Source of the DNA: Hexactinellida sp. DTS-2022 | Taxonomy: Eukaryota; Porifera; Hexactinellida | NCBI GenBank assembly: GCA_028753945.1 | Contig: JAPNXP010000018.1 | Span: forward strand, 1,054,001 to 1,118,000 | Length of the DNA: 64,000 nt | Direction: 5' to 3' | Shown here: positions 31,101 to 52,374 of the stretch, piece after piece | How the letters are laid out: each line of letters starts with the position of its first letter | Numbering within the stretch: position 1 is the first letter of the stretch | Notes under the pieces: generated by a model | Databases searched by the model: none | The model's input: only the letters and a program-made list of their open reading frames with translations | What the model was told of the DNA's origin: nothing | Translations under genes and position numbers: made by a program

Positions 31101-34100
31101 TCCGTCCTGTCGGCTGTAGGGGGGCGTCTCGTCCCGAGGGCGGGGGTAGCGCCCAGCTGATCCTCAGAGTCCGTATCCGACCCGCTGGACCCACTGGACT
31201 CACTCGCAGGGAGATATCTATGAGAGGTGTATTAACTACTCAACACACACAGTGCGGCTATCTCTATGCACTACCGTAGGAGCAGGTATATGTGGTTGTT
31301 GTGCAGGTCTAGTCTCCGGATAGCTTTGGCTACAGAGGTCTCTAGCCCGCTCTCCGGCGGCTCGGACTCGGCCTGTTGCTCCTGGGCATCCCTGACCCGC
31401 TGCTCGATCTCCTTCCAGTCCACAGAGCTGCTCAGACAGCTGCGAACGAACACCAGGGCACTCTCCACCAGCTCCAGGTTATCTTGGATTAAGGTAGCCT
31501 TCTCAACATTGGATTCCTGCAGGAGATGTAATGTCAAATTATTAATTGGAAGGAAATTACACAAATCAATTTATCTTCGTTCAATACAAATCCATTCTCT
31601 GGATGATCAATAATTTGTATAATCTACCGCCAGACCTGCAAAATCTCCAGTTCTCCGATTCGCTTGTCGTGGTCTTTACGAATGTTTGTGAGTTTCTTGA
31701 AAGCTGCCTTTTCCTGCGTGAACGTCTTGCTGCTGATCTTGCTCTCCTCCAGCCTCGAGAAGAAGCTGTCCACCGCTCGGTTAAACGTTTCGTAAGTGTC
31801 AACCATGGATTCCTTATACTGCAGGAACAGGAATGGCTGGAAAGTGTCCAAACTAAAGCAAACGAATATAATGTAATCACACCACAATACACATAGCATT
31901 AATCTCAAATCACAATACACATAGCATTAATCTCGCATATCAATACACATAGCATTAATCTCGCATATCAATACACATAGCATTAATCTTACATCTCAAT
32001 TGCCTTCTGCTCCTCCCCTAGCAGTCTCTCTGTTGCAGAGTCAAATGTCTTCATCTTCTTAAACACATACCCCTGTGAGACACAATCTCGTTAGTACGAA
32101 CACCAGGGGACTGACAACACGTGTTCGCCTTATCCAAATTAGTATTAACTGTTGTCATTGATATTGAAAAAGTTTTCAAGGGGACTGAATATCGTGTTAA
32201 CTGGAATTTCATATTGCCGTATTCGTTACTAACGAGGTTCTACTGTACACAATCTGACTAGCTGTATAGCGAACTAACATAAATAGTATTATAAATGTAT
32301 TTAGCTAACCTTAGCTGTCTCCGAGTCCTTCATCATAGCTTCTCCCAGCAGCAGAGCCTCGAATAGCACCTCTACATCTGTCGGGAATACAATAAACAAG
32401 CCACAGCCAGTATAGTATATAGAGTATATAGTATTATAGATTACCAGTATCAGGGTTAAATCCATGTCCAACTTTACATTTGACACTGAATCCTTTCTCA
32501 ATCAAGCAGTGCTCTATTAAGAAACCGCCGAAACCTAACATACAACATTAGAATAAGCGCTGATAGATATATTGTGTGAGAAACTAACTAAGATGGTGAT
32601 TCAGGCTCTTTTTAACTTCAGCACCATTCTTAAGTTCGGCAACAAACGTTTGAATTCTACAGAAATACAGAAGTATGTATGTACCTAGTATAAATACAAT
32701 ATAGTGGTGTTAGCGTGCTAGCAAGTTGCAAATTTACACGAAGTTTGCTTGATAAACGGCGAACTTGTTATTAGACATTAAATGCTAGCTGGGGATGAAA
32801 AGTAACTTGCTAATATACAAATAGAGCAATTGCTATTATGCGATCACACTATCCATATAACAGCACATGTAGTAAGGTATCTGTTGCACCTATCGAGTGT
32901 GAGTGGCTTCTCGAGAGGCAGTATCTTGTCTACCGGGTACATCTCTCTGACAACAAATCTACTCTCCTCTCCGTCTTTCCGCGTGCGCAGCAGACTCAGT
33001 ATTATGTACTCCCCATCAGTCAGTATAACGTTACCCTAGAGCATCAAGAGTGGCAAAGGAATGTGTATACAGTGGAGCCTCCCATAACGGACACTCCAAA
33101 TTGCGGGCAACCTCTAAATAACGGACAACCCTCGTGGCACGGATTTATTTATTTAGCATATGTCTAATAGAAAAGCAACCTCTAAATAGCGGACAACCTC
33201 TAAATAACGGACAACGGTTCTGGTCCCAAGGTGTCCGTTGTTCAGAGGCTCTACTGTATACTATACAGCTGACTGTGCTTACTCTGTCGTATAGCTCCAC
33301 AATGATATGGTAGTTGTCGGTCCCCGTGGTGAAGAATAGGTCTATGACGCGGTCGCTTCCCATCTGTCTGAGATACTCCAGGCGGGCGTTACGAATGTGT
33401 TTCCGTAACTAGGGCAACACAGCATTAATAAATAGATATCCAACCAATTGGGTAGATCGCTACTCAATTTATATGTATTCGTTAAAATTCCCATTTTATC
33501 GTAATTTTACTTTATTACTTATTCAAATTATATTTGCAAATGGACTCTACTAATTTCGTAATCAAGTTACCGTATTTGTTTAGCTATATAGTAATAACAC
33601 TGCTTAATAATCCATTTGTATTGTAAAATTTATAATCAGTAATAGAGTTGCTAACGAGCATATGTGCGAGCAGTACCTTCATACAGAACCCAGACGGAGT
33701 ATTGTGCTTAGGCCAGTCGAACTCTGTGAGGTGCACTCTCGAACCAGACTCGAATGTGAGCAGGTACCTCTCATCAGGTCTAAATAATAAGCAATATTAA
33801 GTTCATTTCCTGATTAGGATAGCTACAAATTAAATACTATTAGGAAAGAACAGTTTTCATGGACACTAAATTAGTGACTACTTTAGAGGCTAAAGTAAGT
33901 GACTGTTATAGATCGACCAATTTATCCCATTAATTAACTGCGGAGAAAGATCTCTATTAACAGAACCCTTCAATAGTAACGCAAGTACATTATACTACAG
34001 CTGTATTCAGATAATGAACTTGCTGAACTGGCATAATAATTATAATATTCACACCCACACAATTTGCATTGCAGATGCGTGTTTGTTCTAGGATAACAAA

Positions 34101-37100
34101 ATATATATAAATAGAAGAGATGAGTAATGATGAGCTATGACTGTATTGAACTAGCGCTGTGTGTTCAGAATGAAACTTCCATTTCTGTCTTGGGGTTGTC
34201 GCCCAGAAGGAGAACAGAGGCCTTCGACTTTGGGAGCCAGAAGAGTCTGAAGTTGTTGTACCCCGAGTAGGGGGGCAGCGGCTGGCTGTCGGAGGGGATC
34301 ACTGCCAGGACAGTCTTCAAGAGTCGAACGGTTGGGTTCACCATTTGTCCGAGGATGGGCGGAGGCGTGGAGACGTGCCAGAGACGCATCTCGGAGCTGC
34401 CCTGGCTGTAGCTGCAGAGACACTTCCCGTCGATGGAGAAGGTGAGACAGGTCACAGGCGAGCTGTGTCCCACGAACTCCTGCAGCTTGTTGTGCTTGAG
34501 GTCGAACAGACCGATGGACCCGGACTTCCGGCCGACAGCTAGGTTGCTAGTGCGCACGCACTGCGCATAGCAGCCGAGCTTGTCGATGGAGGGAAACACC
34601 TCCTCTATCTTCTTGCTGCGGAGCTCGTCGCTGCCCACACAGAATATGACCAGCTGCATGAACTCCACTATCTTCAGGAAGACGTGCGGGAGTCTCTTCT
34701 TGAGGAGGTCCTCCAGGATCTTGAGCAGGAACCGCCGGGACCTGGGCAGTAGGTGCAGGCCCGACTTGCTGATGCCGGCCGCTATGTCCGGCTCCTGGTG
34801 CTCGTGACCAGGGACGGGGATCAGCGAGTGCGTGGAGCCGATGAACTGCGTGTAAGTGCTCACTTCCTTAGCCAGCACGTCGATCATCTCGTCAGCTCGC
34901 GCGAGGAATATATTGGTGAGCGAGCGCATGGCTATACTTCGTGCCAGCTGATAGTCCACACTCATGGGCTCCTCCACCGTGTTAACTGGGTGCGTCACCG
35001 TAATCTCGAACAGGGACACCAGCACCGAGGGGACCTCCAGGTAGCTGCAGAAGAAGTTGAATCCCTTCGCGATTAGCTCCGCCGCGGTGCGCCTGAGGGC
35101 CCCTTGCAGGGAGCAGGAGGAGGACTGCGGACAGCAGAGAATGCCCTGCAGCGAGAGGGCCACGTGCTCCATCTCCTGCTTGCTGAGCACCTCCCGACGG
35201 GCGCTGTCGCTGGGGGAGCTCACGAAGTCGTGTCCGCAGTCCGTGAACTCGGCTGCTATCACGGATAGGATTATGAGCGCTGTGAAGTACTCCTTCGCCT
35301 TGATGAGAGCCTCGGGGTCAGACAGGTAGTCGGTGATGGGCGGGGCCTCCTGCTTAGAGGACCTGCCCTCGCTGTGTTTCGCAGAGAGCGCCTCTCTGTT
35401 CCCATACGTGATCCCCTTGACCCCGTTCCTGGGGGACAGGGGCTGGGGGGGCATGAACTGGTACCAGTACGTGACGGTCTCTTGCAGGGCCCGCGGGCTG
35501 AAGCTGCGGAGCTGGGCCAGCAGCAGCGCCTGGGCCGCCTCGCGGATCTGTCCGTTGTGGTGCGGCCACTTGAGAGCCAGCACCGAGAGGTGCGGAGGTG
35601 TGAACTTGTGTCCCAGCATTTCCGGCAGGAACACGCAGGTGAGTGTGTTGAGCTGGCTGCAAGCGGTGAGCTTCCGCTGCGAAGACTCGTCGCTGCTCGC
35701 CTTGAGCTGCTTCTTGCTGTAGAGGTTCATGCAGCAGTAGCTGAGTGACGTCAGAGCGAGCAGGTGCTGCGTGGTGAGCCCGGGACTGAGACACCACTTG
35801 TGGCAGAGCGGAAAGCTGCTGGAGGGCGGGTCGCAGGGCTTGAGGGAGGCCGGGTCCAGGCCCCACCCGGGCAGGTATATGGAGAGGCAGGAGTACTTGG
35901 AGAGGAGGCCGTACTGCGGACACATGCAGAAGGAGAGCGGCAGCCGGATCTTGAGGAACTCCTGGCAGGTGGCGTCCAGCTGGGCGTCCATGCCCCAGCT
36001 GTGCAGACAGGAGATGAGGAACCGCGTGAAGAAGGCCGTCTCCTGTCTCCGGTCGAAGGGGGAGGGTCGGGTGGGGCTGGAGGAGAGGTCCAGGTCCTGG
36101 GAGCTGCCCATAGACTTGCTGACCGGCTTGTCGCTGCTCGCGCTGTGCTCAGAGGAGCACAGCTGATCGATTAGCAGCTCCATGTGTATGAGGAGAACCG
36201 GGATAACCGGGTCGAATTGGTGAGAGCGGTATGTCTTCACGCTGGCGATGCTCTTGCCGTTGGTGTGCGCGTTCTTACTGACTTTAGGCGCCTTGACGCC
36301 GGTGCTGTCTCTGCGGAGCCCCGCGGCGCCCGAGTAGCTGCTGGAGATGATCTCCTCCGCCAGGTACCCCACGATAACCCGGTCCAGCACCCCGGTGTCC
36401 ATCTGCCAGATGTACACGCGTCCGTCCTTGCAGCGCACCAGCATCAGGTCCTCCGCCGGCTTCCATCGCACGTTTGTAACCGCGGCTGAGTGGTTAGCGC
36501 ACAGCAACACCTCTCGGAACTCCGAGAGACTCAGGATGGCCACGGAGTTGTCCTGGCCTATGGAGCAGACGCCGCAGTTGAGCCGCGTGTTGGTCATCTT
36601 GGGACACACCTTCAGCTTCATGACCTCCCCCGTGTGCTCCATGAAGCAGTGGAGGTGCAGGCGGTTCTCAATGTCCCACACGCGCACCACCCCGTCGGCC
36701 CCCCCGGTGAGCACGTACTTGCTGTTGAACTGCTCGCTGCTCTGTCGCGGGTACAGCAGCGCGCTCACGCGCCCGCGGTGAGCCTTTATAACCATGACGT
36801 CATCCGCGAGACTGTCTCTGGGGGAGGAGCCGAACACGATCTGCTCCAGGGTCGTGACGAGCGGGAATATGACGACGTAGCCGTTGGAGAGGCCGCACAC
36901 CACCTTGGACAGCTCCGGCAGGTACAGAATGGAGCTGACGCTAATGTCGTTTGCGAAGCAGGGGTCCCTCTCCATCCAGGAGGACTCCAGGAGCATGACG
37001 TCATCGGGGATGTGGGAGGGCGTTATCGAGGAGTGGGAGATTAGCACCTCGCTCAGGTATGACGTGAGGCCGGACCGCTTGTCCAGCAGCTCCCAGGCGC

Positions 37101-40100
37101 TCTGCAGAGAGGTGGTGTAGTGAGGAGAGGTGTTCGGGGGGTGCGGCTGGTCTCTCTCGGTCCCCCCGACCTCCAGGTCCAGCTCCCACATAAGGAGAGA
37201 CCCACTCACGTTGCCCTGCACCAGCAGCACCTTCGTGTCGAGGTGCAGCAGGTCCCAGGAGGCGTCCATGATCAGCTGGGCGGTCGGGTCGCTCTGGAAG
37301 CAGCGGAGGTACCTCACCTCGAAAGTGTTCTCGGGTCCGCTCTGCTGGAAGGAGTACAGATGGGCACTGCCCATGCGGGACCAAACCACGATGTGCTCGT
37401 TGTCCACGAAGTCCCCGCCCGAGAGGGAGAACACGTGTCCCAAGCAGTCCACGTGGCAGAGCTCCGGGAGCTGGGACTTGGCGCACACGCCCAGCACTTT
37501 GAAGTACGAGAACCCGACTATGAGCAGTTTCTGTGCTATCAGCTTTGGCCAGTGAGTGATGTGCTGCACGTTTAGGTAGTCGGAGTGCCGGCTCTTGTCC
37601 TCCTCCTTGCTGTCGGACTCCCGCGGACTCTGCAGGTCCAGCCGAGGCACGTCCCATATCTTTATCAGCGGCTCCGCGGTGAAGGCCAGCACGTGGGTCT
37701 CCTTCTGGTGCAGAGAGAGCGGGATGGCCAGCATGGCACTGATCCAGTTGGGTTGCTCCTCGCTGCTTAGGATGATGGCTAGGTCCAGAGTTCTGGCGTC
37801 CAGGAGATACGCGTTGCAGTAGCTGCCGTACACCAGCAGCAGGTGGTGCGTCTGCGGGGGCCCCAGGTAGCTCAGGCCTCTGTGCTCCCCCTCGAGATTG
37901 GTCTGGTGGGTGCAGGCCCCGTCCCTGGCGTCCCAGCGGATGATCTCCCCGCTGTGGCTGGCGGAGAACAGCATGGCTCCGTCCTGCGAGTAGCAGAGAG
38001 CAGTTATCTGCTCCGAGGCCCCCGCCAGGAGGCAGCGCGGCCGCGCCTGGAAGCTGTTGATGGGGGGGATCATCTGGCCGGATGAGTGGTCGGTGGACGC
38101 CCGATTGGGCTCATGGGAACGGAGGGTCCAGAGACAAATGAATCCCGACCTGCATCCCGTGGCGATCTCATGACCAATGGGACTAATCGTGACACAAGTC
38201 ACGAAGTGGGAGGGAGGCTCATTCCCCCAGAAAACAAGAGGAACTGTTGTCGACATTAGCAATAAAGAGCTCTCTAGTTCTTTGAAGGTATTCCGAATAT
38301 AATCAACCCTATTTGTCATAATAATAAAACGATGATGATTAAGTTACCAAATTGATTAACTAATATATAGAATTCTTAGCGTGGCAGGACTTCGAGATCA
38401 AGAGGAAGCAAAGGTCATTTATAGGATCTTAATCTGGCATCAAACCACGAGTTAAATGAGATCCTCTATATGTATCATGAGAAGATCTATAGATAGAACA
38501 GGAGCAGTACAAATAGAATCGCATACGCAATACAGTGTCGCCTGTGTATTATACGTACAGCCATTTGTAAATACGCTCCTGATCCAATTTCATACGCCTA
38601 AATCACAAATTAATGGTGTAGTGTAGACAACACTGGAACAATGACGATTTGTATACAAGTAGTCCGTCATCGCCGTACCACTTTGAATACTATAAATCTT
38701 TCGCCGTACCACTTTTGAAAAGGATGTGCCGCGGGTGACGTATATATATTTGCTAGGATCACTGACAAGTTTATGGATCTATTTTGTTGCGCCAGATTTC
38801 TATTTGCTATTTGTAATCTGGTCATACTGGATACAGGGTAACTTAGCGACACTCAAGGAATTATCCAGCAGCGCGAGACGCTCCTTTTGGAGCATGATTT
38901 TGGGAAAATTTGAATTTAGGAGCGCGAAAATTTGGAATCCTTTGCTCTACCGTAACATTAATAATTCAATAGACGGTCGTAGGATCCGTATCCGTCGCAC
39001 TACACATGATTCCGCATTTGTTTTTAGCGGTTTCATTTCATTCATTTTAGCATTGTGTGATAAAGCCCCCGATATTTGGAATCAATTGAAAAAGTGGCGG
39101 GGTATGCCGCCCCTGTATATATATACGATTTACAAAAATATACATGATATGCATAGTAATATAGTAAGTATATGAAAAGTGGAGAGGTGGGATGTATTAA
39201 TTAATTTACATCATTAGACGGAATATCAATTGGGATATAAATAATTTCGTGGTTGTAATTACTACTATCAACAGTATATAGTATGAACAAATGATTCAAT
39301 GTCTTCGTGACATGCCAACCTAGGGTTGATGGGCATGTGGTTAGTAAGTCAATTAATACATGACCTAACAGGACTATCATTAAGCAATCATAGTACTGAA
39401 TGGAATATTAATATTTGCAAGAATGTATTATTTATACAATGATCACTACAATTAATTTCCTACTACTTTCTAGAGATGGATTAGCGAAGATAACGGTAGA
39501 TCGGTACATGCTCTATTATCAAATAAATATGGATACTGGATTATAGATACAATTAAGATCATGGATACCAAAGCAGAATAATGTATAAACCACTGATATT
39601 TCAATTTAAATGACTCACTGGATTCCAAATACCAATTCAAATTGAGAATTAATTAACAGATCACATAATAGAATAGTTATTGGATATATTACCCAAATAA
39701 ACAAACGAAAATATCTAAATTGCATATTTAATCTAACACAAAATACAATAATCTATTAAGTAAATAAGGAAAGTAGAAGTAGAAATGTTTAAAGGAAACC
39801 GTAAAATGATGTGAGCCACATGCTAAATGAATGTGAGTGGTGTATAGGATGGATAGCCCGTAAGAAATATACATACGATTTCTTGAATAAAATACAAAGT
39901 GAATAGGAATTACAAATAGGAGATCTCTAATGTATAAATTCCCTAGCTGACTGCTCCTCCCCCCAACCAGAGTGTGCGGCAGTCATGTCGACTGTCAGTC
40001 GCTGGTATAGGTCCAGGTCAAGGGGGGCACGGGGATCGTCTCGTAGATAGAGGAACACGTTTCCACCGATGAATTCAAGCACCATCCTAAGATCACACGA

Positions 40101-43100: not shown

Positions 43101-46100
43101 AAAAGCGCCCAAATCAGAAGCCCAGTTAGTGCGAAAGCCACCACAATAACCCCTGAGTAGGAGACATCTCTCCCAGTACGAATGACTTTCTCAGCAGTAG
43201 TGAGAGCTTTGGGCTCCTGTCGATCTACCTTCAGCAAACTGGAATGTCGTATCTTCTCATTCACGTCGTCAGGGTCAGTAGACTGAGACTTCGTAGAATA
43301 ATTATAATAGTTTATATAAACAGAAGGTGGGAGCACTCTTGAATAGATAGGGATGCAATAAATTCTAAGAGGATACTTCGATAGGAAGAATGAGCGGGAA
43401 ATAGACTGTATCATTGCCTGAGAGATTCAACCAAGGAAACGAGCTGACTCAGCTAATCAATTATCGAACAAATCCCATATGAGATGGATTAAAATTACAA
43501 CTATCCTTTTCACAACTCAAGTATTCGACTGTTTAGACAGGGCCGTAGCCACCAAAATCAAAGTGGTCAGGTTAATTTGACCAACCTGACATTGGTTAGG
43601 TTATTCTGACCAATGGGTACGGCCCTGCTAGACGTTATGCTATAAGCAGTACGTGATACCCTAAGTTGTCGAAAGGATAATTATTATCTAATTATAATTC
43701 CGAGACACTAGAATAGGGCTTTCTCAAATGGCGGTGAAAAAGTTACTAAAAACACAACTACATAATGTAATCCACACTGGCACAGAACAATGTAGAAATT
43801 AGAATAAAAGATCCAGATTTTCATTATGAATTAGCGCTTTAGGCACCCCGCGACCCTAAAACGCTACCGATTTAGGGTCGGGCCTAGAAGCGCTTACACA
43901 GCAATCGTAATTTAGTGGAACCCACTAAAGTACTAGGTTAGTGAGCTTGGAACGTACGAATAACGTAATAGCGGAGCAGCTAAGGAAGCCCTGTAGTTGC
44001 GTCAATACTTTATAGACCATGGATGAGTGCGAATTAGAGCACAGAATTACTTATACGGCTTACTTATATGGCGGCCGCCTACAAAGTCGGCTAGCCGACA
44101 TATAAGCAAATTTCGCCGACATATAAGGAATTAATCTAAAATTGAAAAAATTAGAGTCAAAGTCCCAGGAAGATTGAAAATTAATGACCTATTATGGAGG
44201 AAAAAGAACCTAGCTAGTAAGAAGCGACAATGAATTGGGAGCGATCCAAAAGCCAGAACTTTTAAAAGTGAGTATTAGAGGAAAGGTTGCGATCAACTCG
44301 GCCAAATCCTTCTTTGTCGTCGACATTTGCATATATGTTGGCTAGCCGACATTGAAGTCGGCCGACAAATAAGTAATTCCTTCGTTCTATGTTAGATGAA
44401 TTCCTTATATGTCGGCTAAATCCTTATATGTCGGTGAAATTTGCTTATGTGTCGGTGAAATTTGCTTATATGTCGATGAAATTTGCTTATATGTCGGTGA
44501 AATTTGCTTATATGTCGGCGGCCGCCATATTACGTTTATCATCCAGATTTTTACAGAATTACGGACGGCGGTGGGGGTTCATTGGTTTATTTTCTAATTT
44601 AATAATATACTTCATTATTATTCTAAGTCAAACAACAAAGACCATCATTCCAATCAATATATTAAAAAATCGGTACTGTAAATACAAAATTGATATACAG
44701 TTGAAACTGTTTTTTTCTAACCATTTCTTTTCAGATAAAATAGTAAGAAAAAACCGATAGTTAGAAAAAACCGATGAAAAATACAGTATAGTTGGAATTT
44801 CTTACAAAAGATTGCATTACTAATAGTTAGAATAAACCGATAAGTTAGAATAACCCGAGTTAGAATAAACCGGTTTCGACTGTATATGGAGTAATTTACA
44901 TGAATCTATAGCAAATATTTAGGAAGCACACGTTCTTGAAGTAAGTAGTACAGTAGATGTCGGATATAAGCACACCGGTTATAAGAACATATCGGATATA
45001 AGCACACTATGTTGGAAAACGGTTGCCATATATTATAAGCACCTTAAGTGCAGTTCCCGACGATGTGCTTATAACCGGCATCCACTGTAATAAAATAAAT
45101 CCGGACGGAGGGACGATAAGCAAGCAATATATTTAATATGGCAAGTCGAGTGAGGATATTCAGTAGATTGAGTGAGCATGCGCCTTATAACATGATGCGC
45201 TTTGTAACCCGCAGCATCATGTTCAGGGCGGGCGGAAGCAGTTATAAAGTGGTCAGGCTCCATTTTGCAGGAGCGCAAGGTGGAGCGCGCTCCTTTTAAA
45301 TTTGAGGGAAATGGAGCGCCGCTCACTGGAGTGCACTCCTTTTTAAAATATCACTAAAGTAATCCAATACAAAATTACCAAAATTAGAGATAATCAGTAC
45401 TAATTACGTAAGATCGATAGATCGGATAATTAGAGCAGACAGAACAATTACATTATATAAACCAGGGCACGTTAATTTGGTACGTAATTATTTATAGATA
45501 ATGTAATAATAAGAACCTAACTAAGTTACCATGAGGTTTCCGCAGTTTTTAAGCGCGAAACAGAATTAATTAATTAACCAGATAAACATCTTTGTTTATT
45601 TAATATATTTTGGTGCGCAAGAAATGAAGGAGCGCAAAGTGAGCGCTCCTTTTTTACCGAAGGAATGAAAACAGGAGCGCCGCTCCTTTTTATGGTTAGG
45701 ATTTCGGAGCGGGAGCGGGCTCCAAAATATTAGGAGCGGTTAATGCTTTGCGCATTGTAAAGTTTATTAATAAATACTGATAATTCGTCACATATTTACG
45801 AAACGGAACATATTTACATAATTGAATGTAAATTTTATATCTTTGCATCTTACATTACTTGAGTAGAAATTAGTAAAAGCAAACACACACTGGTAATAGA
45901 TAATGATGAGAGAAAGATGCAACCTACTACCATTATAAACCATCTGTTATGCAGGAGCTAATTCCTTGTTAGTAAACTACTTATTATATGTGATATAAGT
46001 GTTTATCACCCCTTCCGTCAGAAATTAATTTATTAGGATAATATAATAATATGATATTACGGACAAGTAAAATATTGGCTATCGACTCGTATATATTAAT

Positions 46101-49100
46101 TTACATATAACTGTGTAGTCTACGGATGGATAAGATAACGTTCTACGACGAGTCTTCTAGCGAGGAGGACGAGCTCGCCGTGCCCCTGCCCGAGGGCTGG
46201 GAGGACCGCATAACTCCCACCAATAAGATATATTACGTCAACCACAAGGAGAAGTGCACTCAGTGGGAGCACCCCGTGAACGGGAAGACCAGATCGGTTC
46301 CGGCCTTCCTGCCCTACGGCTGGGGCCGCCAGGAGGACGCGGACGGAAACCGCATTTTCGTAGAGTACCTAGCTCAGCGGGCGGCCTACACGGACCCCAG
46401 ACTCCTAACGAACCCTCACAGAAAGCGGTACGTGCTCAAGGTAGCCAAGGCCCGCGGTTCTTTCGTGGAGAACTCCTTCACTGAGAAGACAACGGCCGCA
46501 GAGGTGATAGAGGGGGTGGACCTGACCGGGAAGGTGGCTATCGTGACAGGGGCGAACTCTGGGATCGGTCTCGAGACCACTCGCTGTCTCGCCTCGCAGG
46601 GCTGTCACGTCATAATGACGTGTCGCAATCTCGCGAATTGTAACACCAAAGCTGAAAGCATTCGCAAGGCGTTTCCAAACGCGAAACTGAGTGTCCTGCA
46701 GCTCGATCTTTCGCAGAAAGAGAGCGTGCGGAGTTTCGCGACTGAGTTCCGCTCGCTGCAGGCCCCGCTGCACATCTTGGTGCTTAACGCCGGCGTGCTT
46801 GGCCTGGACTGGGCGCTCAGCAGCTACGAGTGCGAAATGCAATTCTCCGTAAACTATCTGGGACACTTCCACCTGTTCCTCCTCCTGCGGGACCTGCTTG
46901 CGAGCTCCGCCCCCGCGCGAGTGGTGTGCGTCAGCTCGGAGGCTCACCGCTACACACACATCAGCCACTCCACACTGGACCTAGACGGGCCTCTCTCCAA
47001 GACGCGCCCGCGGGACTACTTCTCCATCACTGCCTACGGGAACTCCAAGCTCTGCTGTCTGTATCTGGCAATGGAGATACACCGGCGACACCAGGCCGAG
47101 GGCATACACGCGTACGCAGTGCATCCGGGAGTCATGGTGCCTACCAACCTGTCTCGACACTGGTATGTGTACCGACTGCTGTTCCTCGCGTCTCGCTGCT
47201 TCACCAAGTCGGTGGCCCAGGGCGCCGCTAGCGTGGTGTATTGCGCCGCTAGCCCCCTCCCGGGCGAGGAGAGCGGACTCTACTACTTCAACTGCCGACC
47301 CTCCCGCCCCTCCCACTCCGCGCAGACGCACCTGCCGGCCGGCTCTCTCTGGGAGCTCTCGGAGAGACTCGTGGGGGCACCAACAGCTGACTCATAATGT
47401 TAATGTACCGAGCTCTGTTTGATAACAGCTGACTATATACTAGTATTGCTCGTTATTACAGAATATTGTATAGTTTGTTACTTTGTGGTCTGTGCATTAG
47501 AGACTGGATGGCAGAGTCTTCTCGGAAGCCCAAGCCGGCGAGAGGGGACTACAAACTGCGGCAGAAAAAGCGCAGACAGTCCGGGGGGCCTGAGGACACG
47601 GGAGCAGTGGACGCGTGGAAAATAGAAAGCTTCAAGCCGGAGCACAACCCGGCCCCCTTCCTGGAGGAGAGCAGCTTCTCGCTGCTGTTCCCGCGCTACC
47701 GAGAGGCCTACCTCAGGGAGGCGTGGCCCGTGGTGGCGCAGGCACTCAAGGCACACGGGGTGACCCCGGAGCTGGACCTCATAGAGGGGAGCATGACTGT
47801 GAGGACCACCAGCAAGACGTGGGATCCCTTCATAATAATAAAGTCCCGCGACCTGATAAAGCTGCTGGCCAGGGGCGTGCCGGTGCAGCAGGCGACGCGC
47901 ATCCTGGAGGACGAGGCGGTGTGTGACGTCATAAAGATAGGCGGGCTGATTAGGAACAGAGACAGGTTCGTGCGGCGGCGACAGCGGCTGCTGGGTCCGC
48001 AGGGCGCCACGCTGAAGGCCCTGGAGCTGCTGACGGGCTGCTACATGCTGGTGCAGGGGAGCACCGTGTGCGTCATAGGCAGCTACGCGGGGCTAAAGAG
48101 CGTCAGGAAGGTCGTCACCGACTGCATGAACAACATACACCCCATCTACAACATCAAGACGCTTATGGTGAAGAGAGAGCTGATGAAGAACCCCGAGTTG
48201 AGCAGCCAGAGCTGGGACAGGTTTCTGCCGAAGTTCAAGAAGGTTAACGTTAAGCGCAAGAAGGTCCCCAGACGGGATAAGGGCCCCTATACGCCCTTTC
48301 CGCCCGCGCCGCCCGAGAGCAAGGTGGACCTGGCGCTGGCCAGCGGCGAGTACTTCCTGGCGGAGCGCGAGAAGGAGGGCATCCGCAGAGAGGCCAAGTC
48401 TCGGAAGCAAAAGGAGGCGCGCGCAGAGAGGAATGAGAGCAGACAGAAGCTCTATGAGCCTCCTCAGGAACCAACCAGCTCTAAAGACACTCAACAACAA
48501 CAACAACAACAACCGGAAGTAGATCTAACTGCTCTGAAGAAGAAAATGTCAAAAAACAAATTTGGAAAGCATAAATCCCGAATTGCTGATTAGAATACGT
48601 AGTTTCTTTTATTTTCCTGACACTTTGAGATAACTAAGTACTGTACTATGTAGCGTAGCCTGAATGAAGCTGACTGCATTCCTATCCCCCTTTGGGTTGC
48701 GAGGTTACTCCCGCTACTCTGCTCACCAGAGAGAGAGAGCTAAGCACTCCGGCAGAATACTGGCCTCTGTGGCTCTCATAACCTTCGGTATTTCCTACGC
48801 GGCGGTCCCCCTGTACCGGCTGTTCTGCCAGGCCACCGGGTACGGCGGGACCACCCTCCGACACAAGGACCCGGCTAAGCTGGAACGCTTGGAGCCGGTC
48901 AAAGAGAGGAAACTGGTTGTTCGCTTCAACGCGGACACCAACGCCTCCATGCAGTGGGAGTTCTCGCCGCAGCAGCGCGAGATACAGCTGGTGCCCGGGG
49001 AGGCGGCGCTCGCCTTCTACTCGGCCTACAACAAAACAGACCGGCCCATAACGGGCATGTCCTCCTACAACGTGCTGCCATTCGACGCGGGACAGTACTT

Positions 49101-52100
49101 CATAAAGATCCAGTGCTTCTGCTTCGAGGAGCAGATCCTCAATCCCGGCGAGCGGGTCGAGCTCCCAGTCTTCTTCTACATCGACCCCGACATATCGACA
49201 GACCCCGCCCTCGCGGCTGTCGACACCATCACGCTCTCCTACACATTCTTTGAGGCCAAGCCGGGCGAGAGTCTCTACTACCAGCTGTCTCCCTCCGTTA
49301 AATAGATACTATTGTATTGTATTGTAATGCATTTAAACATCACTGGGCAGAATTCTTAAAAATTATGATTTTGTTTGGCTGCCATAGCAAAAGTAGAGGT
49401 CCGATCGAATTGGGAATTTCATGGCAGCTAGTACTTATTGTATACTGTTCAAAAATACATCTCTTATGATGATGACAGAGAGGGGCCTTAAGTTAATACT
49501 CAATCAATTAGCTACTGGTTAATGGCTACCAATAAGGAGGGGGTGGAGAGTGCCTTGAGCTTCCCATTGAGGGTGCAGGGAATCCGCGAACAGATCGACT
49601 CGCGTTTCTTACGGCTCCACCAACAGCTGGATACCAGGAGAGATTCTCTGATAGAGAAACTGGAGGAAATCTCACAGGACTATGAGAGCAAGTGCGCGGA
49701 TCAAAGAACCGCTATTTCCCAGCTAGAAGACCTGAAAACACACACGAACAAATCTTTGAAAGAGAACTTAGTGCGAGACTTCGCCACTCAGCACACGAAG
49801 CATATAGAGGAGCAGATCCTAGCTCTGAGACTAAAGACAGAATATACCCCGCAGCCAGTGGTGGCCTGGGAGTGGCAAGAGAGTAGAGTTAGCGAGCTCA
49901 TTGCCGGACTAGGGGGAATAGAGTGTGGAACAGGCTCCCACAGTAAGAACAATAAGTCCAGTGATATTAGTGTAAGTGGTGTCCATAAGGAAATGAATAT
50001 CTCAGGCGGTATAGCCATAGACAGGAGCAGCAATAATATCTACGCTATTGAATTTGATTGTTGTAAACTGGTTGTATTCAGTATTCTCTCCGCAACGAGA
50101 GTTTCTATTTACATTTGGTGACGAACCAAGTCAGTCCGGGCCCCAAGGCATAGCTATTCACAAGAATAGAGTGTATGTGACTCGATGGAGGAGCCACGAA
50201 GTGCAAATGTACAGTTTGGAAGGAAAACTAATCCACAGATCGGGCGGGAAGGGGACTGAGAAAGGGAGATTTAAGTTTCCATACGGCATAACCGTCGATG
50301 AAATTGTTGAAGAGGTTTATGTATGCGACCTGAAAAACAATCGTGTGCAAATATTTCTAACAGATTTAAGCTTTAAACGCATTTTTAATAATTGTAATTT
50401 GTATTGTCCTTTGGACGTGAAAGTGAGAGCAGATTTTGTTTTCATTCTGGATCAATCTACTCCCTGCATGCACATATTCGCTAAGAATGGGGACTCGTTT
50501 AGGGACGTCATTACTCGCGGGAAAGAGAATCAACAAACCGTAAATCCTTGGTTCTTTGAGGTAGACTCGAATAACCATATACTATTGACGGACTATAGCA
50601 AGAACTGTGTGCTTATATTTAACCAAGAAGGAGAGTGTATCTTCCAGATAGGAACAGAGGAGGTCGAGTTCTCCGAGCCCTCTGGTATTGCGATAAGCAA
50701 CGAAGGAAGCATAATAGTAGCCTGTCGTAAGAATGTCGGATGTCTACAAGCGTTCTAATAACGTAACCTATGCGAATACGAACTATAAGTATTTGATATA
50801 ATTATTCGTGTGACGTGCAAATATGTTTACAGTAGAGCCTCTGAACAACGGACACTTTGGGACCGGAACCGTTGTCCGTTATTTAGAGGTTGCTTTCTAT
50901 TAGACATACTGTATGCTAAATAAATAAATCCGTGCCACGAGGGTTGTCCGTTATTTAGAGGTTGTCCGCTATTTGGAGTGTCCGTTATGGGAGGCTCCAC
51001 TGTATTATTATTATAACAATGGGGGAAATAAAATGCTTTTAAACTTAAATTAATTGAATAAACTTATTGGAGCGTACATTAATGACCATGGATGAACAGT
51101 ATAGGATAACAAATATGGGTAATACGCCCCTATCTCTGTAGATGCCTACCAAGATATTAGGAATTCTCCGTCCGCAAGGGAAGTTCCCTCTGCGTCGGAC
51201 GGTCGGGTACCTGGAGCGGGGGAGACTGCTGAAACCTGGAATCGAGAGCGTCGCGATTTACTTTAAACAAACGCTAACAGCTGACACGGGCGTGCGAGAT
51301 TTCGTGTTCTATAATCTCCCCCAGCTGGTGTACGTTAATCCCAATGTTCAGTTCAACACATTCAAGAGTCAGAGCAGGTATAGCAACATTGCGTTCTACC
51401 TGTCAGGGGGGGACAGCATTCAGGTGGATCTGGACGGAATGACTCGAGAGGAGGTTTTGGAAGTGGTGCTTAAAATAGCAGAGAAGAGTCCGGAACATAT
51501 CGAGGCTGACATAAAGCCGTTTAATGTTAATCCTATGTATCCGAAGTATCTTATAAATCCGGCTAACTTTGGCTGGCCTTTCTTCGGACAGCGCAAGTGT
51601 ATTTGTGAGGTACCAGGGCAACTCTCTTGTTCGAAATATATCAAATATTGGCCCAAAGAAATGAGAGAGTACGCACAGAAGTTAAGTGGGATTGGGAAGG
51701 GAAAGAAGGTTGATATTAAAGTAATGGATTTAGAATAGTTAGTTTATGAAAATATTCTATAAAGAATAAATGAATACTTCGCATTATCCTTTGTAACCGA
51801 AGCCTGGGCCGAACTCTTAATTTTTATGCAAATTTTTAATTATTATCATGGAATAGAACGATACCTATTTACCTTTAAATACTATACGCAGAACTCTGTA
51901 ACACAATTATAAATTCACTCATATTAGCAAATATTAACTAACCTATTCAGCTTTAGGATGTATGTCTTGTTATCGATGTCGTAGATGTTGTTAACCTTGC
52001 ATCCCGGCAGTCTACACAGGTAGAGTATACATTATACAGGTTATACAAGTTATAATAATACGTACAATAACACCCTAGCTCTGGCATATAGCTCATTTTT

Positions 52101-52374
52101 ACATTGTAATAGTACAGGATTTTTTTAAGGTTGAGACCTTGGTGTAACTCAGCGGGCGGCCGAACCGAATCATGGTGTAACTCCAAAAAATCTTGTAATA
52201 GTATGTATTTTTATTGACTCTCTTAAAACGCAGGTTAATTCTCCTGTCCCTTGTTCAATACCGATGGAGTACAATCCCTTCCAATAGCTTAATTAATAAT
52301 AATAATATTGCTTACAGTCTCTGTAGCTCTCTCACGATAACAATCACATCAAGAGTGGTGAATCTCAGTTTCAT
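28184..52374 (-). CDS. NEMF: NEMF (Rqc2), ribosome-associated quality control factor, with an 18-kb gene-filled intron
   Basis: About 25 exons. Exon 1 (52316-52374) begins [17 protein letters not shown]. Exon 2 (51943-52011) reads [20 protein letters not shown]. Exon 3 (33677-33779) continues [20 protein letters not shown]. Cumulative lengths (59, 128, 231 nt) keep the frame across both junctions, with codon AG|A completing Arg. Later exons (33286-33408 down to 28184-28255) give the NFACT-N domain, coiled coil (about 31.6-31.9 kb), the NFACT-R block ([20 protein letters not shown], 30.6-31.0 kb), acidic and lysine-rich linkers, and the NFACT-C tail ending [11 protein letters not shown]. Known role: binds 60S subunits carrying peptidyl-tRNA, recruits Listerin and adds C-terminal alanine tails. 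Intron 2 spans 33780-51942 (about 18.2 kb) and contains eight other genes. The remaining introns are mostly under 250 bp. Confidence 0.93.
30319..30400. repeat. Short imperfect repeat of GCAGCATGCTTTT
   Basis: GCAGCATGCTTTTATGCACTT is followed by GCAGCATGCTTTTTTTGC and GCAGCGTGCTTTTTTTGCATG in a NEMF intron, three imperfect units of about 20 bp. Probably slippage-generated. Confidence 0.6.
31885..31996. repeat. Four-copy 28-bp tandem repeat over a NEMF 5' splice site
   Basis: Four adjacent units of CAATACACATAGCATTAATC plus 8 variable bases (CTCAAATCA-, CTCGCATAT- and CTTACATCT-type ends). The last unit in plus coordinates contains the NEMF donor (GTAAGATTAATG on the minus strand, GT at 31991-31992). 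The other copies lack a GT there. Confidence 0.9.
32081..32245. mobile_element. TA-type MITE, CTCGTTAGTACGAA family, copy 1
   Basis: The left part AATCTCGTTAGTACGAACAC pairs imperfectly with the right end TTCGTTACTAACGAGGTTCTACTG (only the last 20 bases are typical), followed by TA. Internal AGGGGACTGA repeats are present. It lies in a NEMF intron and is related to 56290-56455. Confidence 0.65.
32702..32852. mobile_element. Degenerate TA-type MITE, GTGTTCGC family
   Basis: AGTGGTGTTAGCGTGCTAGC at the left and GCTATTATGCGATCACACT at the right, with a shared interior (ATTAAATGCTAGCTGGGGAT, AACTTGCTAATA). The termini have drifted. It lies in a NEMF intron. Confidence 0.65.
33070..33256. mobile_element. 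Pogo/Tigger-like MITE, family 1
   Basis: 187 bp in a NEMF intron, TA-flanked. Ends are CAGTGGAGCCTCCCATAACG and CAGAGGCTCTACTG. The interior has repeated CTCTAAATAACGGACAAC blocks in tandem. Near-full match in reverse orientation to 50830-51002. Confidence 0.85.
34165..38319 (-). CDS. WDR7: WDR7 / rabconnectin-3 beta, V-ATPase assembly regulator
   Basis: Single open frame of 1384 residues, near the usual length of about 1490, although WDR7 genes normally have many exons. The N-terminal WD40 propellers run to about residue 650 ([59 protein letters not shown]). A helical middle follows ([30 protein letters not shown], then [12 protein letters not shown] and [19 protein letters not shown]). The C-terminal repeats are near residues 1240-1340 ([34 protein letters not shown]). 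Known role: partner of DMXL/rabconnectin-3 alpha in V-ATPase assembly and vesicle acidification. It lies inside NEMF intron 2 on the same strand. Coding GC content is high compared with flanks. Confidence 0.95.
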   Translation of the reverse strand: MTNRVDYIRNTFKELESSLLLMSTTVPLVFWGNEPPSHFVTCVTISPIGHEIATGCRSGFICLWTLRSHEPNRASTDHSSGQMIPPINSFQARPRCLLAGASEQITALCYSQDGAMLFSASHSGEIIRWDARDGACTHQTNLEGEHRGLSYLGPPQTHHLLLVYGSYCNAYLLDARTLDLAIILSSEEQPNWISAMLAIPLSLHQKETHVLAFTAEPLIKIWDVPRLDLQSPRESDSKEEDKSRHSDYLNVQHITHWPKLIAQKLLIVGFSYFKVLGVCAKSQLPELCHVDCLGHVFSLSGGDFVDNEHIVVWSRMGSAHLYSFQQSGPENTFEVRYLRCFQSDPTAQLIMDASWDLLHLDTKVLLVQGNVSGSLLMWELDLEVGGTERDQPHPPNTSPHYTTSLQSAWELLDKRSGLTSYLSEVLISHSSITPSHIPDDVMLLESSWMERDPCFANDISVSSILYLPELSKVVCGLSNGYVVIFPLVTTLEQIVFGSSPRDSLADDVMVIKAHRGRVSALLYPRQSSEQFNSKYVLTGGADGVVRVWDIENRLHLHCFMEHTGEVMKLKVCPKMTNTRLNCGVCSIGQDNSVAILSLSEFREVLLCANHSAAVTNVRWKPAEDLMLVRCKDGRVYIWQMDTGVLDRVIVGYLAEEIISSSYSGAAGLRRDSTGVKAPKVSKNAHTNGKSIASVKTYRSHQFDPVIPVLLIHMELLIDQLCSSEHSASSDKPVSKSMGSSQDLDLSSSPTRPSPFDRRQETAFFTRFLISCLHSWGMDAQLDATCQEFLKIRLPLSFCMCPQYGLLSKYSCLSIYLPGWGLDPASLKPCDPPSSSFPLCHKWCLSPGLTTQHLLALTSLSYCCMNLYSKKQLKASSDESSQRKLTACSQLNTLTCVFLPEMLGHKFTPPHLSVLALKWPHHNGQIREAAQALLLAQLRSFSPRALQETVTYWYQFMPPQPLSPRNGVKGITYGNREALSAKHSEGRSSKQEAPPITDYLSDPEALIKAKEYFTALIILSVIAAEFTDCGHDFVSSPSDSARREVLSKQEMEHVALSLQGILCCPQSSSCSLQGALRRTAAELIAKGFNFFCSYLEVPSVLVSLFEITVTHPVNTVEEPMSVDYQLARSIAMRSLTNIFLARADEMIDVLAKEVSTYTQFIGSTHSLIPVPGHEHQEPDIAAGISKSGLHLLPRSRRFLLKILEDLLKKRLPHVFLKIVEFMQLVIFCVGSDELRSKKIEEVFPSIDKLGCYAQCVRTSNLAVGRKSGSIGLFDLKHNKLQEFVGHSSPVTCLTFSIDGKCLCSYSQGSSEMRLWHVSTPPPILGQMVNPTVRLLKTVLAVIPSDSQPLPPYSGYNNFRLFWLPKSKASVLLLGDNPKTEMEVSF
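38726..39175 (+). other. Unexplained 149-codon open frame
   Basis: The open frame encodes a hydrophobic N-terminus followed by a basic middle ([24 protein letters not shown]). No family is recognised. The AGCGCGAGACGCTCCTTTTG and AGGAGCGCGAAAA segments inside it resemble the GGAGCGC-rich repeat at 45269-45737, and codon use looks like noncoding DNA. It is probably repeat-derived rather than a gene. Confidence 0.2.
39176..39926. other. AT-rich stretch 3' of kindlin
   Basis: About 750 bp within NEMF intron 2. It should include the kindlin 3' UTR. Many short AT-rich motifs are present but no repeat or coding feature I can support. Confidence 0.5.
39927..41837 (-). CDS. FERMT: Kindlin (fermitin) integrin activator
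   Basis: Single open frame of 636 residues, slightly shorter than vertebrate kindlins (about 680). The F0 domain starts at residue 8 ([17 protein letters not shown]). F1 follows, with a short lysine-rich loop (six K near residue 140) instead of the long vertebrate F1 loop. F2 is interrupted by a PH domain at about residues 310-410 ([20 protein letters not shown] ... [10 protein letters not shown]). The F3/PTB domain ends in [18 protein letters not shown]. Known role: binds integrin beta tails and activates integrins with talin at adhesions. In F3 the integrin-binding Gln-Trp pair of vertebrates is Ser555-Trp556 here (GMKSWKINW). It lies in NEMF intron 2, same strand. Confidence 0.95.
   Translation of the reverse strand: MAAKEVEWDLAIEVLHLGARKVLRVRSDWSVGHVLSTLSSKLLETNISHYGLWWPDKRLWLRKHQQSLHGYGVMSDAKIQLINLNHRIFVELPDKSVYKCVVNFSKPVFEVVRDLCRLMSIRRPEELSLLKFREDGVAGKKKKKKAEKAASSEDGTYHPDVTYGYQPEGVQFHRQNESTELFAKEYTKSLKDLAYINRNWLDSNHSLYEQDVFDEDHLYLRYKYHAFLDLNPQLDDFRIRQLFEQAKWSVLSEEVDCTEEEAMTFAALQFQATLAYSQKEQQKKDNSAAIASDIDQQLMDLKDSLGQTDADMQAPAEETYGYMKLTKGGFTLRGPKRYWFMLQGVTLCEYKSNEDNNIIDKYNVKGAVSEADLDPSRNRFAINLQLENGDDIRLMCDNADEYVKWMASFKIAGRGEIITENKLEREKTSVSAFIAMQIGKNDTNGATPGDIKPELQPHLLVSQRFIKKYKSKSRDLSRKVVEAHTCLLNLSLIDAQMQYIRNWMVLLDFGISYFVVQFTRPKREALLGIAFNRMVAIDINSYDQIKIWRYSGMKSWKINWKTKEMRIIHEEGDFGFVCLSCDLRMVLEFIGGNVFLYLRDDPRAPLDLDLYQRLTVDMTAAHSGWGEEQSAREFIH
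41838..42760. other. Intergenic spacer kindlin / TIMM21
   Basis: About 920 bp, AT-rich, within NEMF intron 2. It holds the kindlin promoter and TIMM21 3' end by position. Several TTAATTAATTAA-type palindromes occur but nothing classifiable. Confidence 0.5.
42761..43414 (-). CDS. TIMM21: TIM21, TIM23-complex subunit
   Basis: Single-exon, 217 residues. The N-terminus is rich in Ser, Arg and Tyr without early acids (mitochondrial presequence-like). One membrane span lies near residues 92-113 ([17 protein letters not shown]). The conserved intermembrane-space domain contains [19 protein letters not shown] and ends [16 protein letters not shown]. Known role: inner-membrane protein linking TIM23 to TOM and to respiratory-chain assembly. 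The ATG follows TCTCTCAG by 3 nt, another start beside a splice-acceptor-like AG. It lies in NEMF intron 2 on the same strand. Confidence 0.92.
   Translation of the reverse strand: MIQSISRSFFLSKYPLRIYCIPIYSRVLPPSVYINYYNYSTKSQSTDPDDVNEKIRHSSLLKVDRQEPKALTTAEKVIRTGRDVSYSGVIVVAFALTGLLIWALFSEFFSGNSINSIFTRTLKVVRGNENVQRVLGEPIRGFGEHTGWNRRRRLDHVIYKVGDDQHIRLEYNVRGQRRLGRVNVDLKKDARGRYQIRYLLIELEGRPAGTLIVQDTR
43538..43627. mobile_element. hAT-like MITE (90 bp)
   Basis: Ends CAGGGCCGTAGCCACCAAAA and inverted CAATGGGTACGGCCCTG. The interior is palindromic (GGTCAGGTTAATTTGACC, then GGTTAGGTTATTCTGACC). CAGGG termini are typical of hAT elements. The flanking 8 bp show only a partial duplication (TTAGA / CTAGA). 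Confidence 0.75.
43833..43895. repeat. Perfectly nested hairpin with TTTAGGG stem
   Basis: The outer stem AGCGCTTTAGGC pairs with GCCTAGAAGCGCT, and the inner stem CGACCCTAAA pairs with TTTAGGGTCG around a short loop (ACGCTACCGA). No flanking repeat copies are seen in the window. Confidence 0.8.
44070..44526. mobile_element. Foldback element with GGCGGCCGCC ends and 21-bp subrepeats
   Basis: Starts TATGGCGGCCGCC and ends GGCGGCCGCCATA. The left arm has GTCGGCTAGCCGACATATAA and AAATTTCGCCGACATATAAG. The right arm holds about five tandem units of approximately TGAAATTTGCTTATATGTCGG (44403-44520), which are the inverse of the left-arm sequence. The centre (about 44110-44330) is unique, without coding capacity. 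Open frames reading through it are repeat artefacts. Confidence 0.85.
44698..44882. mobile_element. TA-type MITE, CGAAACCGG family, copy 2
   Basis: 185 bp, TA-flanked. The left end CAGTTGAAACTGTTTTTTTC matches the inverted right end AATAAACCGGTTTCGACTG. An internal run of AAACCGATAGTTAGAAAAAA-type repeats makes it longer than the copy at 20897-21072. Confidence 0.8.
44951..45087. mobile_element. TA-type MITE, GGATATAAGCAC family
   Basis: 137 bp, TA-flanked. The left end is CAGTAGATGTCGGATATAAG and the right end is CTTATAACCGGCATCCACTG. The interior repeats GGATATAAGCAC. The CAGT..ACTG ends again place it with pogo-like elements. Confidence 0.82.
45269..45737. repeat. GGAGCGC-rich inverted clusters
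   Basis: Two blocks (45269-45345 and about 45626-45737), each with several GGAGCGC / GCGCTCC palindromes and GCTCCTTTTT runs, separated by about 280 bp of AT-rich DNA. Together they look like the arms of an element, although clean ends are not visible. Confidence 0.55.
45738..46125. other. AT-rich region upstream of WWOX
   Basis: About 390 bp with no repeat recognised, expected to carry the WWOX promoter. A GTGTAG lies shortly before the ATG. Confidence 0.5.
46126..47397 (+). CDS. WWOX: WWOX, WW-domain oxidoreductase
   Basis: Single open frame of 423 residues (human 414). WW1 is at about residues 20-50 ([20 protein letters not shown]) and WW2 at about 61-93 ([17 protein letters not shown]). 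A short-chain dehydrogenase domain starts near residue 133: [19 protein letters not shown] (NAD(P) fold), LNAGVLG, catalytic SSEAHRY and YGNSKLCC. Known role: tumour suppressor that binds PPxY proteins and has steroid-dehydrogenase-like features. The human gene spans about a megabase with large introns, whereas here the coding region is 1.3 kb and unbroken. GC-rich codons. It lies in NEMF intron 2, opposite strand, first of a tight head-to-tail series with KRR1 and COX11. Confidence 0.97.
   Translation: MDKITFYDESSSEEDELAVPLPEGWEDRITPTNKIYYVNHKEKCTQWEHPVNGKTRSVPAFLPYGWGRQEDADGNRIFVEYLAQRAAYTDPRLLTNPHRKRYVLKVAKARGSFVENSFTEKTTAAEVIEGVDLTGKVAIVTGANSGIGLETTRCLASQGCHVIMTCRNLANCNTKAESIRKAFPNAKLSVLQLDLSQKESVRSFATEFRSLQAPLHILVLNAGVLGLDWALSSYECEMQFSVNYLGHFHLFLLLRDLLASSAPARVVCVSSEAHRYTHISHSTLDLDGPLSKTRPRDYFSITAYGNSKLCCLYLAMEIHRRHQAEGIHAYAVHPGVMVPTNLSRHWYVYRLLFLASRCFTKSVAQGAASVVYCAASPLPGEESGLYYFNCRPSRPSHSAQTHLPAGSLWELSERLVGAPTADS
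47508..48593 (+). CDS. KRR1: KRR1 small-subunit processome KH protein
   Basis: Single-exon, 361 residues from ATG 47508 ([10 protein letters not shown]), chosen because the upstream in-frame ATG at 47466 adds only a hydrophobic stretch foreign to the family. The body matches KRR1: [33 protein letters not shown], then the KH domain [20 protein letters not shown] and [20 protein letters not shown], followed by [13 protein letters not shown] and a lysine/arginine-rich tail with a seven-Q run encoded by CAA repeats at 48493-48512. Known role: nucleolar 40S maturation with the U3 processome. The start lies 110 nt after the WWOX stop and 7 nt after GTGCATTAG. Confidence 0.95.
48664..49305 (+). CDS. 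COX11: COX11 copper chaperone of cytochrome c oxidase
   Basis: Single-exon, 213 residues. The first about 30 residues are basic and serine-rich (mitochondrial targeting), followed by one membrane span at about residues 36-54 ([20 protein letters not shown]), then [16 protein letters not shown], typical of COX11. The copper-binding IQCFCFEEQ motif and [19 protein letters not shown] are intact. Known role: delivers Cu(I) to the CuB site of COX1 in the inner membrane. It starts 70 nt after the KRR1 stop, suggesting either very short UTRs or co-transcription. Confidence 0.96.
   Translation: MKLTAFLSPFGLRGYSRYSAHQRERAKHSGRILASVALITFGISYAAVPLYRLFCQATGYGGTTLRHKDPAKLERLEPVKERKLVVRFNADTNASMQWEFSPQQREIQLVPGEAALAFYSAYNKTDRPITGMSSYNVLPFDAGQYFIKIQCFCFEEQILNPGERVELPVFFYIDPDISTDPALAAVDTITLSYTFFEAKPGESLYYQLSPSVK
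49522..50758 (+). pseudogene. Coiled-coil NHL-repeat (TRIM-NHL-like, no RING) protein, frame broken by a 7-bp duplication
   Basis: The first open frame (49522-50121) encodes a coiled coil (about residues 15-110) and the first NHL strand ([20 protein letters not shown]). The second (50048-50758, frame +1) continues with NHL repeats ([58 protein letters not shown]). The two readings join naturally if one copy of the duplicated 7-mer at 50074-50087 (GTATTCA GTATTCT) is ignored. There is no RING or B-box. As written, the product stops after 199 residues. Either a recent pseudogenising duplication, a polymorphic allele or an assembly error; the remaining sequence is well preserved. Confidence 0.75.
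50830..51002. mobile_element. Pogo/Tigger-like MITE, family 1 (reverse orientation)
   Basis: 173 bp, TA-flanked, ends CAGTAGAGCCTCTGAACAAC and GGGAGGCTCCACTG. Close reverse-complement match to 33070-33256, including the shared interior ATAAATCCGTGCCACGAGGG. It is about 70 bp 3' of the NHL gene. Confidence 0.87.
51142..51738 (+). CDS. MRPS25: Mitochondrial small-subunit ribosomal protein mS25
   Basis: Single-exon, 198 residues. The core matches mS25: [38 protein letters not shown], then [20 protein letters not shown] with [14 protein letters not shown]; the cysteines around CICEV are conserved. It has a longer insert ([16 protein letters not shown]) than the human 173-residue protein. Known role: constituent of the mitochondrial 28S subunit. 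The ATG immediately follows ATCTCTGTAG, an ideal acceptor. It is the last gene inside NEMF intron 2, only about 200 bp from NEMF exon 2. Confidence 0.92.
   Translation: MPTKILGILRPQGKFPLRRTVGYLERGRLLKPGIESVAIYFKQTLTADTGVRDFVFYNLPQLVYVNPNVQFNTFKSQSRYSNIAFYLSGGDSIQVDLDGMTREEVLEVVLKIAEKSPEHIEADIKPFNVNPMYPKYLINPANFGWPFFGQRKCICEVPGQLSCSKYIKYWPKEMREYAQKLSGIGKGKKVDIKVMDLE
51765..51770 (+). terminator. Likely polyadenylation signal of MRPS25
   Basis: An AATAAA hexamer lies about 27 nt after the MRPS25 stop, the usual metazoan poly(A) signal spacing for a very short 3' UTR. Confidence 0.55.

Follow-up and report, generated by a model that had tools for sequence, protein, structure and literature searches.

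Results

One NEMF Gene with One Very Long Intron

The DNA analyzed here (the window, 64 kb of a contig from the glass sponge Hexactinellida sp. DTS-2022) contains a NEMF gene on its minus strand. Manual exon extension yields a single collinear gene of 25 exons (52374..28184), which ends at a stop codon at 28184 and encodes a product of 1042 residues (table 1). GT and AG are present at all 24 introns, and 23 of these measure 51–304 bp; the exception is intron 2, at 18,163 bp. An earlier note on this DNA had described an 18.2-kb NEMF intron in a gene whose other introns are tens to a few hundred bp long, and our measurements bear out both parts of that description. The positions and minus-strand orientation it had given for exons 1–3 were recovered exactly, with the expected GT/AG sites.

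The junction across the long intron is in phase: Arg43 is assembled from AG at the end of exon 2 and A at the start of exon 3, which confirms the arginine codon that had been proposed there. Human NEMF (PDB 9gy4) aligns with the joined product from residue 1 and is gap-free for the first 140 residues, so the alignment spans the exon 2/exon 3 junction, and the earlier claim of a continuous protein holds as well. Pfam recognizes NFACT_N, NFACT-R_1, and NFACT-C in the product, the domain content of the NEMF/Rqc2 family. The NFACT_N profile matches the joined protein over residues 4–409 (109 bits) and the Oopsacas minuta protein, the annotated form of which is without these exons, over residues 74–400 (68.8 bits).

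Table 1. Exons of NEMF and coding regions enclosed by its second intron (window coordinates)
Feature	Position	Strand	Remarks
NEMF exon 1	52316..52374	-	Start codon at 52374; residues 1–20; assigned by donor, phase, human alignment
NEMF exon 2	51943..52011	-	Residues 20–43; ends in phase 2; matched in tblastn by 6/6 animal N-termini
NEMF intron 2	33780..51942	-	18,163 bp; ~63% covered by eight other genes
NEMF exon 3	33677..33779	-	Completes Arg43; ends with Met76-Lys77
NEMF exons 4–25, to stop codon	28184..33408	-	Introns between them 51–247 bp; NFACT-R_1 and NFACT-C
WDR7	34165..38256	- (as host)	Single ORF; Pfam WD40; O. minuta relative named WD repeat-containing protein 7 in UniRef
Kindlin (fermitin)	39927..41837	- (as host)	Single ORF; Pfam; PDB fermitins, E = 1.6e-97
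TIMM21	42761..43414	- (as host)	Single ORF; Pfam TIM21
WWOX	46126..47397	+	Single ORF; WW and short-chain dehydrogenase domains; name inferred from the domain pair
KRR1	47508..48593	+	Single ORF; Pfam
COX11	48664..49305	+	Single ORF; Pfam
NHL-repeat gene	49522..50758	+	Pfam; frame broken near 50.08 kb
MRPS25 (mS25)	51142..51738	+	Single ORF; Pfam just under cut-off; PDB mS25, E = 7.5e-27

Genes within and beside the Intron

Eight coding regions lie entirely between 33780 and 51942, and their coding parts are thus nested within one intron; the last of them, MRPS25, has its stop codon 204 bp from NEMF exon 2. The earlier note had listed eight unrelated genes on both strands at this place. All eight were identified, on the strands that had been given, but only seven have intact reading frames of their own. 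The exception is the NHL-repeat gene, in which a frame change within 50060–50125 may reflect a lesion of one haplotype, a decaying gene, or a sequencing error.

Several of the identifications can be qualified further. No PDB match was found for TIMM21 at 1e-3, and the PDB matches for WDR7 were solely other WD40 proteins among the best 60 of 288. WDR7 relatives were absent from the prokaryote and viral contig collections searched, and five more WDR7 proteins from ENA contigs match over their full length at 75–92% identity; WDR7 therefore appears to be a single ORF there too. At a threshold of 0.01, no additional Pfam genes were found in the gaps at 38344–39929 (four of six frames) and 43427–46110 (all six frames), nor did searches for tRNA and Rfam elements return any. 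Between WDR7 and kindlin there is an open stretch of 159 residues (38696–39172, plus strand) that has no Pfam match and possibly occurs by chance. The region between TIMM21 and WWOX holds an inverted repeat with arms at 44060–44132 and 44304–44376 (84%) and, beside it, a 21-nt tandem array at 44402–44527; the pair resembles a small transposon remnant.

Exon 1 is followed on its right by an HCNGP-domain gene, which we take to be SAP30BP, and by genes for dyskerin and UTP15, identified by their domains. All three are on the plus strand, so that NEMF exon 1 and SAP30BP are divergent. Single ORFs also occur among the genes elsewhere in the window. At the genome-wide rate of the glass sponge Aphrocallistes vastus (12,409 single-exon transcripts per 19,578 genes; PMC10282587), the probability that eight of eight genes are single-exon is 0.026, and that for seven of seven is about 0.04, which is mild evidence that the enclosed genes arrived as intronless copies.

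Constraint on Exons 1 and 2 Resembles That on Exons 3–5

Within the window, tblastn searches with the N-termini of six animal NEMF proteins matched exon 2 in every case (E = 1.9e-6 to 2e-3) and also matched exons 3, 4, and 5, and matches outside NEMF had E values of 0.43 or worse. Exon 1 alone was matched by four of the six at noise level (E = 0.073 to 3.0); we assign it because of its start codon, donor site, phase, and place in the gap-free human alignment. Neither a second NEMF copy (by tblastn) nor a local exon 3 near exon 2 was detected in the 64-kb window, and the 77 N-terminal residues, used as a query, returned no candidate in the protein database for a separate short protein made from exons 1–3.

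Constraint on the first two exons was compared with that on their neighbors by using a consensus of 107 of the 120 listed animal homologues; the 13 with too little N-terminus, among them O. minuta NEMF and a EukProt transcript, were excluded. Identity to this consensus in exons 1–2 minus that in exons 3–5 is −0.024 for the window gene, and the median for the 107 homologues is −0.020. In each segment the window NEMF scores close to the lowest of the 107 homologues, which indicates a protein that is fast-evolving or distant throughout. Scored by leave-one-out against the gene's own sites, the donor of intron 2 (TAG/GTTAGT) ranks 4th of 24 and its acceptor 5th of 24. It counts against the junction that the score of the exon 3 acceptor is equaled or exceeded by 33 acceptor-like sites inside the intron. 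The anatomy of the gene, the phase of the junction, the continuity of the protein, and the evenness of constraint are shown by the sequence. As far as the sequence can tell, even constraint and strong in-phase splice sites support the view that exons 1 and 2 are still used together with the rest of NEMF, and phase, alignment, the longer NFACT_N match, and even constraint agree in presenting the exons on either side of the intron as one functional gene.

A different first exon adjoining exon 3 would also give a NEMF transcript. When single coding first exons are considered, the 387-bp spacer that separates WDR7 from exon 3 offers only two in-phase ATG...GT candidates, of 11 and 17 nt, and reading upstream from exon 3 in frame meets stops within 150 nt. 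We therefore reject such an exon as unlikely.

Repeats, a Possible Assembly Error, and a Candidate Micro-Exon

Self-comparison of the window revealed a repeat of about 200 bp with mutually inverted copies at 33067–33264, in NEMF intron 4, and at 50821–51005, in intron 2 between the NHL gene and MRPS25. A partial third copy lies at 10243–10365. Owing to their inverted arrangement in introns 4 and 2, the first two copies could pair in the pre-mRNA around exons 3–4. Their presence near both ends of the enclosed block also lends some weight to an assembly error, in which the block from WDR7 to MRPS25 was misplaced within NEMF or exons 1 and 2 were misjoined to MRPS25. We consider such an error very unlikely, though it is conceivable at the right boundary, between MRPS25 and exon 2. 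The copies lie away from the boundaries that a misjoin would have to explain, the window contains no N, and, as described below, NEMF and WDR7 also appear to share a contig in O. minuta. A split by inversion between the two copies is rejected, because exon 3 lies between them and would have been flipped, yet it is correctly oriented. Repeats linking both ends of intron 2 were not found among the best 20 of 48 direct families, among 25 of 28 inverted pairs, or in the self-comparison. The self-comparison also shows a tandem array at 10608–11221, with copies offset by multiples of about 16 bp.

Intron 2 contains a candidate micro-exon of 23 nt (51873..51895, minus strand), 47 nt past exon 2, with a good acceptor and a good donor, the latter being the only donor of such strength on the sense strand of the intron. 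Applied to the whole window, the same thresholds select five acceptor/donor pairs from the minus strand, this one included, and two from the plus strand. Of the remaining four minus-strand pairs, two begin exactly at NEMF exons 15 and 23, and this coincidence with real exons suggests that the 23-nt element may be a real exon too. As read from the sequence, its inclusion would shift the NEMF frame. It could serve as a poison exon or as a recursive-splice point, or it could have arisen by chance.

The NEMF Locus of Oopsacas minuta

Among the best 120 of 458 database matches, the closest NEMF is that of O. minuta, with 71% identity along 93% of the query and a score of 1509 bits, in keeping with a glass sponge as the source of the window. 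It is followed by the EukProt transcript (1321 bits), which is the only other glass-sponge-like NEMF among those 120, and the next match scores 788 bits. The EukProt transcript begins at the equivalent of residue 176, past the exon 2/exon 3 junction. The annotated O. minuta protein has 951 residues and starts with MKLRKH, the first two residues of which correspond to the Met-Lys that ends our exon 3 (Met76); its model therefore is without exons 1 and 2 and most of exon 3, that is, the first 75 residues.

NEMF and WDR7 of O. minuta are each listed on contigs of 1,926,057 bases. From the equal lengths we take these to be the same scaffold; a coincidence would have a chance of about 3% if the genes were placed at random in 61.46 Mb. 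Together with the start of the NEMF model, this probable linkage argues that the boundary between WDR7 and NEMF, on the left of the intron, is real and old. A gene model unable to cross nested genes would start where that of O. minuta NEMF starts, and the start at Met76 is thus as expected if the first exons of this species also lie beyond other genes. The missing 75 residues are likely an annotation truncation. Only 83 nested genes are annotated in O. minuta, against 2432 (about 12% of genes) in A. vastus, and according to the authors of that comparison, counts are low in some genomes because a gene-modelling option had been disabled (PMC10282587). The loss of the N-terminus could also mean that exons 1 and 2 are unused or merely that the model is poor. 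Indeed, the O. minuta WDR7 model, of 880 residues, is cut short as well: its match ends at our residue 902, with the part nearest to NEMF missing, and this calls for caution in leaning on the start of the NEMF model.

The beginning of the O. minuta model at the equivalent of Met76 fits another account as well, one that we regard as unlikely. Exons 3–25 could be expressed from the WDR7–NEMF side, by their own promoter or by read-through, with a spliced leader added at the exon 3 acceptor and translation starting at Met76; exons 1 and 2 would then be used only sometimes or would be relics. A trans-spliced leader of about 37 nt exists in A. vastus, where it is predicted on 4% of long reads (PMC10282587), and AATACA is the only one of five poly(A) hexamers found between WDR7 and exon 3. 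The resulting product, however, would miss the start of NFACT_N. Moreover, constraint on exons 1 and 2 and on exon 3 up to Met76 is like that on the neighboring exons. If the split is old, sequence that is not used would not be expected to show such constraint, which speaks against the Met76 form as the sole product.

Discussion

A Nested-Gene Intron Probably Removed in Cis

Taken together, the observations make it probable that the locus is a genuine nested-gene intron, spliced in cis, with independent genes inside and with a block of genes older than the split from Oopsacas. Trans-splicing, a short form with a spliced leader, and misassembly are possible but less likely than this explanation. 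Under the hypothesis of cis-splicing, one promoter upstream of exon 1 would serve a gene whose first two coding exons stand 18.2 kb upstream of the rest. RNA polymerase II would transcribe all 24 kb of the unit, and splicing from the donor of exon 2 to exon 3 would discard the 18,163-nt intron. Each of the eight enclosed genes would be independent and have a promoter and a 3′ end of its own. Probably the block entered, or expanded within, a short intron of the ordinary kind at a time before the lineages of Oopsacas and this species separated.

Three of the enclosed genes, WDR7, kindlin, and TIMM21, are transcribed in the same direction as the host, and their 3′ ends could stop host transcription. 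Among the five hexamers sought, AATAAA does not occur within 500 nt after the stop codons of these genes, and the variants ATTAAA, AATATA, TATAAA, and AATACA are present. Such 3′ ends bear on the alternative that NEMF is bipartite, with exons 1–2 and exons 3–25 forming separate transcripts that are joined by trans-splicing. Each half is indeed flanked by other genes, and trans-splicing of a leader has been reported in A. vastus (PMC10282587). The halves are, however, collinear, on the same strand, and in the right order, so that cis-splicing suffices. Nor do the ~200-bp inverted repeats favor a joining of separate halves, as they would pair intron 2 with intron 4 and not the two ends of intron 2. 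In flies, 727 of 1651 nested genes are oriented as their host, and intronic poly(A) signals are silenced there (PMC3890989). A bipartite gene therefore seems quite improbable to us, and we favor cis-splicing, in which the poly(A) signals of WDR7, kindlin, and TIMM21 would be ignored because they are intronic in the NEMF transcript, as in the nested genes of flies.

A broader version of these alternatives can be framed for glass sponges as a group, namely that the NEMF message is made from two independently transcribed halves at one locus, by discontinuous trans-splicing or by an obligatory choice between a spliced leader and exons 1–2 at the exon 3 acceptor, with a long and an N-terminally short NEMF. 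Taken as a whole, we judge this proposal rather unlikely.

An Extreme Instance of a Known Arrangement

Genes within introns are a known arrangement, of which the NEMF locus is an extreme instance. The share of nested genes in A. vastus noted above is called normal across several animal phyla by the authors of that study, who list two other sponges with more nested genes, 3358 and 5032 (PMC10282587, Table 1). As at the NEMF locus, there are cases in A. vastus of a single-exon gene inside another gene of a glass sponge, and glassin lies within a host gene in A. vastus and also in O. minuta, so that this instance of nesting is common to two genera (PMC10282587). NEMF itself does not occur in the main text of that paper, and we found no eight-gene intron there.

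A precedent in form is intron 2 of flotillin-2 (Flo-2) in D. melanogaster, which holds 12 GMC oxidoreductase genes plus CG14406; the arrangement is conserved in four insect species (PMC1891103, Iida et al. 2007). There, too, a whole cluster occupies a single long intron close to where the coding sequence begins, and the codons for the first 16 host residues lie upstream of it, much as the start of NEMF is split off. The Flo-2 intron differs in its length of 83.2 kb and in holding paralogues that are mostly in one orientation, whereas the NEMF intron is 18.2 kb long, and about 63% of it is taken up by eight genes that are unrelated, lie on both strands, and in seven cases are single ORFs. The last intron of CG18675 likewise contains several genes, those of the TipE/Teh cluster (five genes in D. 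melanogaster, one of them unrelated), and is conserved in most of the insects compared; it differs in having fewer genes, mostly co-regulated paralogues (PMC3240667). The ctenophore Hormiphora californensis, also a spliced-leader organism, has 2357 nested genes in 1654 hosts, many of them parallel to the host, and differs in that the example drawn has four nested genes in a single host, two of them doubly nested (PMC8527503).

One intron enclosing eight genes on both strands, as the earlier note had proposed, is the best supported reading of the locus, but its description as highly unusual is too strong in view of how frequent nesting is and of the Flo-2 precedent. What sets the locus apart is the combination of unrelated genes, single ORFs, and both strands with a host whose other introns are so short (51–304 bp). 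No description of this locus was found in the main texts of the literature searched, nor did that literature contain a ranking of extremes in the number of nested genes per intron.

Implications for Glass Sponge Genomes

NEMF is a ribosome-rescue protein, and its gene is the host of the enclosed block. The locus offers an extreme test case of a compact genome that would transcribe a host through eight genes on both strands and, equally, a test case for how 3′-end signals on the same strand are ignored inside an intron. It also cautions that first exons lying far away can be lost from automatic models, as the public O. minuta NEMF, without its first 75 residues, may illustrate. Should the message instead come from two halves, a conserved neighborhood of eight genes would be permanently lodged inside a ribosome quality-control gene. 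If, as the data for O. minuta suggest, glass sponges share the arrangement, the gene neighborhood would be locked in place. Microsynteny between A. vastus and O. minuta is strong and wide (PMC10282587), and a shared, locked neighborhood of this kind may help explain it.
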